Source: Yersinia alsatica (GTDB lineage Bacteria; Pseudomonadota; Gammaproteobacteria; Enterobacterales; Enterobacteriaceae). From it: 64,000 nt of DNA. The notes beneath the pieces are model-generated. The model was not told the DNA's origin and made no database searches. It saw nothing but the letters and a program-made list of their open reading frames with translations. The stretch is taken from NCBI RefSeq assembly GCF_902170305.1, contig NZ_CABHWW010000026.1, positions 62,001 to 126,000 on the forward strand, in the 5' to 3' direction. Of the stretch, positions 14,823-60,395 are shown in pieces. Position 1 is the stretch's first letter, and the number at the start of each line of letters is the position of its first letter. The translations under genes were made by a program, and so were the position numbers.

Positions 14823-15359
14823 ATGACTCATGACTACCAGCAGTTAATCGACATTTTTAATACTTGTTTCAGTGATGAATATAATACGCGATTGGTAAAA
14901 GGTGACGACGAACCTATCTATCTGCCCGCCGACGACCAGTTTGCTTATCATCGGGTCATTTTTGCTCATGGCTATTATGCCAGCGGCATGCATGAAATTT
15001 CTCATTGGTGTATCGCTGGTGAAGAGCGGCGCAAGCTGGTGGATTTTGGTTATTGGTATTGCCCTGATGGGCGCGATGCATTAACTCAGAGCCAGTTTGA
15101 AGTTGTCGAGATAAAACCCCAGGCACTGGAGTGGATGTTTTGTGTTGCGGCCGGTTTTCCTTTCAATGTCAGTTGCGACAATTTGGAAGGCGATTGTGAA
15201 CCAGACCGGATAACCTTCCAGCGTAAAGTACGTGAACAGGTGCTGTGGCATCTGGAAAACGGAATATCCCCACGACCTGCGGGCTTTATTCAGGCGCTAC
15301 AATCGTTCTACAATACGCCGCTGCTGGCAGCCGAACTTTTCCCTTACCCGGAAGATTGA
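14823..15359 (+). CDS. epmC: Elongation factor P hydroxylase EpmC
   Basis: EpmC (YfcM) hydroxylates the beta-lysylated Lys34 of elongation factor P, completing the modification begun by EpmA and EpmB. The 178-residue protein matches E. coli (182). Conserved segments are the probable iron-binding GMHEISHWCIAGEERR, FGYWYCPDGR and the C-terminal RPAGFIQALQSFY. It follows yfcA after 64 bases and precedes yfcL, as in E. coli. Confidence 0.93.
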   Translation: MTHDYQQLIDIFNTCFSDEYNTRLVKGDDEPIYLPADDQFAYHRVIFAHGYYASGMHEISHWCIAGEERRKLVDFGYWYCPDGRDALTQSQFEVVEIKPQALEWMFCVAAGFPFNVSCDNLEGDCEPDRITFQRKVREQVLWHLENGISPRPAGFIQALQSFYNTPLLAAELFPYPED

Positions 15360-15439: not shown

Positions 15440-15553
15440 ATATACCCGATAAATTTCAGACCACAGACAGGCGGCGAAAGAGTTTATCCCGATGAGCTTA
15501 CATATGTCAGTGATTCGGATGAGCGAAAGCAACCAATACGCTGTGGTTTGAAA
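15440..15553 (-). repeat. ERIC element, reverse orientation
   Basis: Reads as an ERIC in reverse: TATACCC terminus, ACAGGCGGCG, the core ATCCCGATGAGCTTACAT, AGTGATTCGG and a decayed Ala-rich far arm. It fills most of the epmC-yfcL spacer, ending 26 bases before yfcL, so it is in the yfcL leader. Confidence 0.8.
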
Positions 15554-15578: not shown

Positions 15579-15866
15579 ATGATCGCAGATTTCGAAACGC
15601 ATATTTTAGCGCAAATTGACGACATGGTAGAGCACGCCAGTGATGATGATCTCTTTGCGGGTGGCTATCTACGCGGCCATTTGACGCTAGCAGTGGCGGA
15701 ATCCGAAGAGCACGGTGAAACGTCCGCCGAGCAGCTACATGCACGTGTTCAGCATAGTTTGGACAAAGCCATCAAGGCGGGTGAATTGTCGCCGCCGGAT
15801 CAGGTGTTAGTTTTGGGGTTGTGGGATAGATTACTAGAACAAGCCCAAAATCCCCTTCGTCCTTGA
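15579..15866 (+). CDS. yfcL: YfcL family protein
   Basis: A 95-residue acidic, helical cytosolic protein that matches E. coli YfcL throughout ([54 protein letters not shown]). Function unknown. GAGGAAAAGTA precedes the ATG. A reverse ERIC lies immediately upstream and the tandem ERIC array immediately downstream, the array's first bases overlapping the last codons. In E. coli it is linked to epmC. Confidence 0.92.
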
Positions 15867-16412
15867 AGCCGCAGGGTTGTTAGCGGCGCTCACTTACCCG
15901 AATCACTTACTGATGTAAGCTCATCGGGATGCGTTCGCTTGCTGCCTACCTGCGACTCCAATGACTTTGGGCATTTCTTTTGTCCTTGAAACCACAGAGT
16001 TGTTAGCGGCGCTCACTTACCCGAATCACTTACTAATGTAAGCTCATCGGGATGCGTTCGCTTGCTGCCTACCTGCAACTCCAATGACTTTGGGCATTTC
16101 TTTTGTCCTTGAAACCACAGAGTTGTTAGCGGCGTTCACTTACCCGAATCACTTACTAATGTAAGCTCATCGGGATGTGTTCGCTTGCTGCCTACCTGCA
16201 ACTCCAATGACTTTGGGCATTTATTTTGTTCTTGAAGTCACAGGGTTGTTAGCGGCGTTTACTTACCCGAATCACTTACTGATGTAAGCTCATCGGGATG
16301 CGTTCGCTTGCTGCCTACCTGCAGCTCCAATGACTTTGGGCATTTCTTTTGTCCTTGAAACCGCAGGGTTGTTAGCGGCGTTCACTTACCCGAATCACTG
16401 ACTGATATTTGC
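15855..16412 (+). repeat. Tandem array of ERIC elements, 123-bp period, four full copies and a partial fifth
   Basis: The sequence CTTGAA of each unit begins at about 15861, 15984, 16107, 16230 and 16353: spacing is exactly 123 each time. Each unit contains the ERIC core CACTTACTGATGTAAGCTC with CATCGGGATGCG and the right arm GCTGCCTACCTGC..ACTCC. Copies 2 and 3 are nearly identical (CCACAGAGTTG, TTACTAATG variant), while 1, 4 and 5 differ by a few bases. The last copy breaks off inside the 3' end of mnmC, providing its stop codon. Single ERICs are known in Yersinia; a head-to-tail array with constant period implies local duplication. Confidence 0.92.
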
Positions 16413-18455
16413 CTCAGAAGCTGCCGGAGTACGATGTTGTACCGGCTTACCTTTCAGTAATTTTCGTACCCAAAAGCGGTTAGGATTGAGTGCTGCCAGT
16501 GTTGTTGCATCCAATGGTAACGGTTCGCTAAACATTTGTGCCGCCAGAATTTCAGCCACCAGTGGTGCGCTGCATAACCCGCGTGAGCCTAGTGCCCCCG
16601 CCATAAATAACTCCGGCCACACTGGGGCGAGTGCTATTTCTTCGCCTTGCTGAATTTTACGCGGCAAATCCTGATATTGCTCTAACGTAGCGGCATAGTT
16701 TGGCACCGCACCCACCATCGGTAAATGGTCGCGGATAGCACATCGCACCCCACAACGCGCCTGATTATCACTGATATCAACTTGCTGCGGCCAACTCACT
16801 TCTGGCAGGCAACGCAGCAGACGATCCCGATTCTCTTGCTGTTCTTCGGCGCGAAAATCGGTGGCGATATCGCCGCGCTGATAGCTGGCACCAATACAAT
16901 GATGCTGATTGGTAGGGTTCACTGGGGTCAGATAGCCGTCATAACACAGCACCTGACGCAACTGGCTGAGTTCTGGTGTGGTGGGGATGTGCGAAACCTG
17001 CCCACGCACCGCAGACAGCGGCAGATGGCGAGTTTGCTCCCACTCCGGCAAACGGTGGCCGGTAGCAAGCACGACAGTGGCATGCTGTTGGGCGGACAGT
17101 GGTTGCTGGAAAACTAACTGCCATCGTCCGTCAATGTGCTCTAGCTGGCGCAGCTCGTGTTGATAATGGCAGGTCATGCCATTTTGCTGTGCCAGAGCGA
17201 TGAGCGCGGTGGTGAGGTCTGATGGACAAAGCCAGCCACCCGCCGGATAGTGAATGCCGTCGTGAGCACAATCCAACCCTGCTAGTGAACTGAGTTGTTC
17301 ACGGCTCATGGCTTCGGCGAGTTGTGGTGGCCAGTCTATTTGCAGCATCTTATCAATCTTGCCGCGGCTTTTATCATCAAACGCCAATTGGCTGACGCCG
17401 CACCACTGATGGTCAAAGTGGATTCCTTGCTCAATTAACTGATCATATTGCCGGCGAGCAAAGGTAAAGGCACTGGTGAAAAAGGTTTCCAGTGCATCTT
17501 TTTTACCATTCAGCAGCGGGTAGAGTGCCCCTTGTCGGTTACCTGAAGCCCCTTGTGCCGGTTGTGTATCAGCACAATAAAGTGTCACCTTGGCACCACG
17601 GCGTAGCAGGGCCAAAGCGGTTAACGCACTGACTATTCCACCACCAATAATCGCAATGTCATTGCAATGGGCTGCAGCCGGCCGGTGATACCAAGGCGCA
17701 GATTGGGTTGCGAGACTTTGCGGTAAAATACCGGTCAGCATTTCACGTTTTTGCCCGAAACCTTTGACTTTCGCCACTTCAAATCCAGCTTGCTGCAATC
17801 CACGACGCACAAATCCGGCGGCAGTAAAGGTGGCAAATGTTCCCCCGGTTCTTGCCATGCGCGCCATGGCATTGAATAGCGTGTCATTCCACATATCCGG
17901 ATTTTTAGCCGGAGCAAAACCATCAAGGAACCAGGCATCGACTTGATGGTTCAAACTGGCATCCAACTGTGGCAGCAGAGTGTTGACATCGCCAAACCAC
18001 AAATCCAGAGTGATGGCGCCCTCGGCCAGTAAAATACGATGGCATCCCGCAAGCGGTAATGGCCACTGCGCCCGTAACTGCTCAGCAAAAGCGGCCAATT
18101 CCGGCCAGCGGTCATGGGCAGCGGCTAAATCGGCGACCTGAAGTGGGTATTTTTCAAAGCTAATATAATGTAATCGCTGAAGTTTTGCTGCTGGATGTTG
18201 TTGTCTGAAATGGGCGAAGTCACGCCATAATGTCAGGAAATTCAATCCGGTACCGAAGCCGGTTTCGGCAAAAATGCAGTTTTCGCGCGGGTGTTGAACA
18301 AAGCGCTCGGGGAAGCCATTGCCCTTAAGAAAAACGTAGTGAGTCTCTTCCAGCCCATCTTCATTGGAAAAATAGATGTCATCAAACTGTTCCGATACAG
18401 GTGTACCCTGTTCATTCCAGCTCAAGGTTGCCGTTTGGATTGGGGGATTACTCAC
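16395..18455 (-). CDS. mnmC: Bifunctional tRNA 5-methylaminomethyl-2-thiouridine biosynthesis protein MnmC
   Basis: MnmC finishes mnm5s2U34 in tRNA: the C-terminal FAD oxidase removes carboxymethyl from cmnm5U, and the N-terminal methylase adds a methyl from SAM. The methylase part (about residues 1-245) has [17 protein letters not shown] and [15 protein letters not shown]; the oxidase part begins [19 protein letters not shown] and has [15 protein letters not shown] use the GTG at 18455 ([12 protein letters not shown]...), giving 686 residues; the upstream TTG at 18476 lacks homology. The last codons (..ISQ-stop) lie in sequence derived from the ERIC array, extending the tail relative to E. 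coli. Divergent from fabB. Confidence 0.95.
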
Positions 18456-18543
18456 GTTTAAAGACTCGTATCTCAAGGGGTGGGGCGATTCTAACTATGT
18501 GACCCGCCGCGTGCAAATCGTAAAATTATCTGGGTATATTACG

Positions 18544-23659: not shown

Positions 23660-23785
23660 TATACCCGTCATCTTTCAAGCCGCAGGGGTATTGGCTACCA
23701 TCATTCACCCAAGTCATTGAGTTATCTCAACTCCTTGAGTTCATTCAGTTGCCGCCTACCTGCAACTCGAAATATATTGGGTACA
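23660..23785. repeat. ERIC element between PTS IIA and porin genes
   Basis: Terminal repeats ATACCCGTCATCTTTCAAG and CTCGAAATATATTGGGTA, with arms CCGCAGG and GCCGCCTACCTGCAA. The core is AAGTCATTGAGTTATCTC, differing from the CACTTAC core of the array; the copy at 54953 shares it. It can fold in RNA and may set relative levels of PTS and porin mRNA. Confidence 0.88.
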
Positions 23786-54952: not shown

Positions 54953-55074
54953 TATACCCATCATCTTGCAAGCTGCAGTGGTGTTGGTCGCCATCATACA
55001 CCCAAGTCATTGAGTTATCTCAACTCCTTGGGTGCATTCTATTGCCGCCTAGCTGCAACTCAAAATCTATCAGG
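54953..55074. repeat. ERIC element between hisP and yfcH
   Basis: TATACCCATCATCTTGCAAG left end, CTGCAACTCAAAATC right arm. Core AAGTCATTGAGTTATCTC is shared with the copy at 23660. Lies between convergent genes, where it may serve as a transcript end. Confidence 0.88.
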
Positions 55075-60268: not shown

Positions 60269-60395
60269 ATTCCCGCCATCTTTCAAGCTGCACGTGCGTT
60301 GGCTATGCTCAATAACCTGAATCACTTACCACAGTAAGCTCATCGGGATTATCTCGTTTGCCGCCTTCCTGCAACTCGAATTATTTTGGGTATAG
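60269..60395. repeat. ERIC element between IIA and IIB of the second PTS operon
   Basis: CCATCTTTCAAGCTGCAC left arm, core ATCACTTACCACAGTAAGCTC with ATCGGGAT, right arm CTGCAACTCGAATT and terminal GGGTATA. Belongs to the same core subfamily as the array at 15.9 kb. It is inside an operon, between IIA and IIB. Confidence 0.88.

Follow-up and report, generated by a model that had tools for sequence, protein, structure and literature searches.

Between the convergent genes yfcL and mnmC of a Yersinia alsatica genome (coded G000), an ERIC element is repeated head to tail at constant spacing, which raises the question of how such an array arises. ERICs have been in use for strain typing for more than 30 years. 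The ERIC (IRU, RU-1) elements of Enterobacteriaceae were reportedly described by Hulton in 1991 and those of Yersinia by De Gregorio in 2005, the latter reportedly describing a duplication of TA by ERIC. The locus lies in a stretch of 64,000 nucleotides analyzed as a whole (the window; contig NZ_CABHWW010000026.1, positions 62,001–126,000), to which the coordinates of the array refer.

Structure and identity of the array

Analysis with Tandem Repeats Finder (TRF) revealed a head-to-tail ERIC array at 15859–16406, with a period of 123, 4.5 copies, 94% matches and 0% indels. Its copies start at 15859 + 123n, in the same register as the 15861 + 123n of a preceding sequence-only reading, whose exact 123-bp period without indels was reproduced. 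Copy 1 (15849–15975, + strand) is 127 bp long, runs from one TATA-like end to the other with a canonical left end, aligns without gaps to 127 positions of RU-1 and was recognized by nhmmer (2–125, 138 bits). Copies 2 (15972–16098, +; 4 bp in common with copy 1), 3 (16095–16221, +) and 4 (16218–16344, +) were found by both TRF and nhmmer. The fifth copy (16341–16408, +; nhmmer model 3–67) is a truncated left part, which is cut just beyond the hairpin apex and ends near 16406–16408. With L and R denoting the ERIC halves, L′ the truncated left part (stub) and n the number of full copies, the array has the form (LR)4 L′.

Since neighboring 127-bp ERICs have one terminal TATA in common (127−4=123), the period does not reflect bases lost at the junction, as had been supposed; the window junction GGGCATTTCTTTTGTCC is the counterpart of GGG-TATA-CCCTTCGTCC. 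The full copies differ pairwise at 3–9 of 123 positions, with 3 differences between copies 2 and 3, whose near identity had been remarked on. Because the copies are only about 92–98% identical, the array is not very recent. The earlier concern that it might be an assembly artefact or collapse seems unfounded, as the copies share exact repeats of at most 62 bp and arrays of like form are present in single-contig genomes.

Unit 1 aligns with the published E. coli ERIC/RU-1 consensus (PMC2759123) over 127 positions, with no gap and 72% identity (score 149, shuffle maximum 62). The Yersinia subfamily iii consensus likewise gives a gapless alignment of 127 positions with 78% identity (score 167, shuffle maximum 61). 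The gapless alignment bears out the proposed ERIC identity of the tandem units: the window unit is an ERIC of Yersinia subfamily “iii”, one of three subfamilies separable by their ends and the one to which nearly all arrays belong. The array shares with ERIC/IRU/RU-1 elements the 127-bp length, TATA-like ends, central core, long hairpin and proximity to stop codons, but differs in the distinct ends of subfamily iii, the long head-to-tail arrays and the stub at the right end. A search of the array against Rfam returned nothing at the gathering score, and no intrinsic terminators were found within it.

The Y. alsatica genome contains at least 72 ERIC matches, dispersed and intergenic. Most single copies have TA-like ends, and several begin 1–4 bp past a stop codon. 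Four other single ERICs are located in the window. A degenerate copy at 15460–15551 (−), in the opposite, anti-fork orientation, lies upstream of yfcL, between this gene and that at 14823–15359; those at 23663–23783, 54960–55064 and 60277–60393 (all +) follow the replication fork and belong to subfamily ii or are classical-like. Mid-element insertions were observed in other ERICs: about 70–80 bp in G002 (sampled stretch 257866–258165) and about 20 bp in the yfcL-mnmC segment of Y. similis. Among the de novo repeats in Table 3 of the Yersinia genus paper PMC2847712, the lengths of Kristensenii39 (142 bp) and Aldovae3 (154 bp) would fit a subfamily-iii unit plus stub.

The predicted ORFs confirm that yfcL (15579–15866, +) and mnmC (16395–18476, −) converge on the array, and the stop codons of both lie inside ERIC sequence. 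The last residues of YfcL, NPLRP, and its TGA stop codon come from the left end of copy 1; the mnmC stop codon (16395–16397) and last residues lie within the truncated fifth copy. The YfcL C-terminus is AQLPH* or similar in species without ERIC and AQNPLRP* in most species with it.

One insertion site and local amplification

The yfcL-mnmC segment was compared in about 20 Yersinia species. Many of them share the left junction GCCCAAAAT-CCCCTTCG, and the number of full copies at the site differs between species: 4 in the window array, 3 in genomes G019 and G012, and a single one in Y. vastinensis, Y. thracica and others; Y. frederiksenii has 0 and retains the left half alone. This comparison of copy number, proposed by the sequence-only reading, thus identifies the site as a variable-number tandem repeat between species. 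The same reading had allowed that other Yersinia might carry unrelated sequence here without an array. Many share the left junction with an ERIC, whereas no recognizable ERIC was found between yfcL and mnmC in five species (Y. artesiana, Y. proxima, Y. pekkanenii, Y. ruckeri and Y. nurmii). Since the left junction is shared by sites with 4, 3, 1 or 0 full copies, the array derives from one old insertion that has grown and shrunk in place. The breakpoint of L′ is identical in the window array, Y. frederiksenii and Y. vastinensis. At another site, orthologous arrays of G004 and G019 contain 3 and 16 full copies, respectively, and their L′ terminate at 59 and 61.

The distribution of arrays was examined by an ERIC profile scan of 2.79 Mb, sampled as contiguous 20-kb stretches from five Yersinia genomes. 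Thirty-nine arrays of at least two units, with a maximum of 17, were detected; as the stretches were picked to include some known arrays, this density is not an unbiased genome-wide value, while strand and stub counts were not selected for. The view that ERICs are normally single elements therefore does not apply here: ERIC arrays are not exceptional in Yersinia. In the near-complete genome G019 (3.5–3.9 Mb), two arrays of 16–17 near-identical units span about 2 kb each (sampled positions 118311–120400 and 328202–330245). Evenly spaced ERIC-like copies were also observed outside Yersinia, at G038:C1:3679970–3680341 (123 bp), G145:C49:215013–215219 (122 bp) and G138:C1:5127716–5128092 (134 bp).

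The general form of the arrays is (LR)n L′. According to the profile, 29 of the 39 close on the right with a partial left part and one opens on the left with a partial copy. Direct alignment revealed a left-part stub after the last full unit at 32 of 89 loci and a right-part stub before the first at one. By subfamily, the stub was present at 29/65 loci of iii, 3/13 of ii and 0/11 of classical ERIC; in subfamily iii, no stub was detectable at about half of the loci. In a few cases, the terminal copy may be a unit with an internal deletion and a preserved right end.

Units of the same array are monophyletic in 21 of 24 arrays, with an identity of 0.989 within arrays versus 0.740 between them, and 29 of the 32 L′ stubs are nearest to the L of the same locus. 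The stub is therefore a local copy rather than a separately arrived neighbor. The units of the window array form one clade with two other arrays, which are nested with it in the tree; with 92–98% identity between its units, the array is older than most.

These data bear on the possibility that separate ERICs inserted successively into the TATA end of one already in place. Such events do occur, as shown by two dimers of other subfamilies (G000 C26:126401 and G019:10178) whose units are not monophyletic, and the nested position of the window array is not decisive taken alone. For most subfamily-iii arrays, however, both the monophyly and the origin of L′ contradict this explanation, which we consider highly improbable.

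The sequence-only reading had proposed recent unequal crossing over or slippage. Local amplification is supported by the monophyly of the arrays; recency is not, given the divergence of the window copies. As a complete explanation, ordinary slippage or unequal crossing over of an ERIC already in place, unconnected to replication direction, appears quite unlikely. It agrees with the clear local amplification and in situ changes of copy number, but it predicts neither the excess of right-end stubs (32 to 1), nor the orientation with the fork described below, nor the junctions with a shared TATA at many unrelated sites. The periods of arrays at such sites are mostly 120–127 (outliers 140 and 145), and end-to-end junctions therefore recur at independent sites.

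Orientation with replication and the hairpin

Fork direction in the sampled stretches was determined from GC skew and KOPS; in seven genomes oriC was placed by mnmG, and dif was found in six of these. ERIC loci run L to R along the replication fork at 79 of the 89 sampled loci (i, 9/11; ii, 13/13; iii, 57/65). In the seven genomes, 134 of 146 subfamily-iii loci follow the fork; orthologous insertions across species are not independent, so that within-genome counts, such as 38/40 in G002 alone, carry the weight. The window strand has a positive GC skew throughout, and the window array therefore follows the same rule. When the classical consensus served as query, with matches mostly in other genera, the bias was weaker and uneven (96/145). 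The orientation of IS200, used as a positive control, gave a mixed result (9/9 in G004, 14/20 overall).

The strand of the genes was rejected as the cause of this orientation, since 1133 of 1973 genes (57%) are co-directional with the fork and subfamily-iii elements share the direction of the gene upstream at only 32 of 65 loci. In the sampled stretches, solitary (26/30) and tandem (31/35) copies are oriented with the fork to a similar degree; for the latter, 31/35 is the figure to trust, as a count of 74/75 among the best-scoring matches omitted at least one anti-fork array, located in G004 near 1,175,586.

It might be argued that the orientation results from retention or selection, based on a polar signal of the chromosome, a hairpin stability that depends on orientation or a role at the RNA level, rather than from entry or multiplication. 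Many subfamily-iii elements do lie within 40 bp of stop codons, and the effects of ERIC RNA in Yersinia are orientation-dependent according to PMC2229807. Against this stand the counts for upstream genes, which leave gene direction without explanatory value, and the similar bias of solitary and tandem copies; moreover, inspection of the unit by reading identified no KOPS. Such an origin of the orientation is, in our opinion, unlikely.

Three anti-fork loci possess a stub, which is still on the right of the element. Stub polarity is therefore intrinsic to the element, and these loci rule out that it is a by-product of fork direction. Purely fork-driven slippage is thus insufficient to explain the polarity, and some asymmetry of the element is needed.

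In silico folding gave an energy of −40.6 kcal/mol (z −2.1) for one unit, and for the whole array −179.5 (z −3.9) on the + strand and −198.7 (z −7.5) on the − strand. The ERIC palindrome forms one long hairpin of 30 pairs, with 97.9% of cells paired in 43 units. In these units, 14 pairs show double changes, and cells with double changes number 100 versus 9 with single changes; no shuffle out of 500 gave arm covariation as high, with the qualification that cells are not independent events. G-U intermediates between the hairpin arms are nearly absent, which suggests that their matching is maintained in the DNA, as by template switching within the palindrome, rather than solely by selection on RNA. 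The pairs at alignment columns 25/100 and 58/68 flip between two states (GC/CG, 22 to 18, and UA/GC, 25 to 17, respectively), with almost no intermediates.

A possible origin of the arrays and related elements

The explanation that we prefer, and hold to be somewhat more probable than its negation, is that one old insertion over the end of yfcL was multiplied in place, with a founding L R L′ generated by re-copying of the hairpin at the fork. In this scheme, (i) a subfamily-iii ERIC inserted long ago across the end of yfcL, (ii) a replication fork would have encountered the extruded ERIC hairpin, (iii) synthesis arriving at one TATA end would have resumed at the other, brought alongside by the hairpin, and (iv) part of the element would have been copied again before synthesis proceeded, giving L R L′. 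The direct repeat L...L′ could then have allowed slippage or recombination to raise or lower the copy number, down to the lone half in Y. frederiksenii. As far as sequences can tell, comparison among genomes establishes the single insertion site, local multiplication, a fixed L′ with varying copy number, the polarity of the element and its fork orientation. We infer the fork-coupled re-copying step, including the meeting of the fork with an extruded hairpin, the passage from TATA to TATA and the appearance of L R L′ first. Stub polarity, fork orientation and covariation favor such fork-coupled copying over generic unequal crossing over.

Single-strand transposition offers a possible, though doubtful, alternative: a fork-targeted enzyme would put ERIC into the lagging-strand template with a precise left and a leaky right end, so that (LR)nL′ would arise in a single step; the inserted DNA would sometimes be a multi-turn copy of a 123-bp circle. 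It would explain the element-intrinsic polarity of L′ better than fork re-copying does, and it fits the derivation of L′ from its own L as well as the hairpin structure. The fork orientation also resembles that of the IS200/IS605 family (IS608, ISDra2), whose members have hairpin ends and are oriented with replication through the lagging-strand template (PMC5371812, PMC6006769). These elements, however, encode or need a Y1 (IS200-type) transposase, which the Y. alsatica genome and 18 of 25 Yersinia genomes lack; despite its orientation, the array is therefore not classed with IS200/IS605. Furthermore, insertion by itself cannot account for the variation in copy number at fixed sites. The duplication of TA reported for ERIC is also unlike IS200/IS605. 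A more general proposal, which we put forward tentatively and regard as rather unlikely, is that a putative activity, precise at the left end and leaky at the right, copies or moves ERICs at the fork in the form of single-stranded hairpins, with the stub arrays as its signature.

Other elements, IS200/IS605 among them, are already known to be oriented with replication (PMC5371812, PMC6006769). In the literature searched, which did not extend to De Gregorio 2005, we found no description of ERIC arrays with a stub at the right end or of ERICs oriented with replication. The REP/REPIN arrays of Pseudomonas fluorescens SBW25 (PMC3116915) are likewise ordered tandem repeats of small hairpins, which run forward on one side of the chromosome and in reverse on the opposite side; they differ in their unrelated sequence, a unit consisting of an inverted REP pair and a RAYT transposase, and the available part of that paper does not mention stub polarity. 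Pneumococcal BOX elements (PMC3049150), also mobile repeats of small size, have a variable tandem part and are enriched between convergent genes, but only their inner module boxB varies, and their strand bias mirrors that of genes (about 61%), versus 89% for ERIC here.

The effect of the array on the cell is probably limited to the 3′ ends of the two convergent genes, i.e. new stop codons, C-termini and stable hairpins. In Yersinia, ERIC RNA can destabilize upstream mRNA in an orientation-dependent manner (De Gregorio 2005, as summarized in PMC2229807), so that an effect of the array on yfcL is possible; the RNA stems may also act jointly on the yfcL and mnmC transcripts, as the sequence-only reading had suggested. 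The ready change of ERIC copy number at a site in Yersinia is relevant to ERIC-PCR typing and to the 3′ ends of genes. Fork orientation, the one-sided partial copy and double-change covariation are clues that can be counted, and the ERIC mechanism can be tested in laboratory strains; the polarity of the arrays and their orientation with the fork hint at how ERICs spread.
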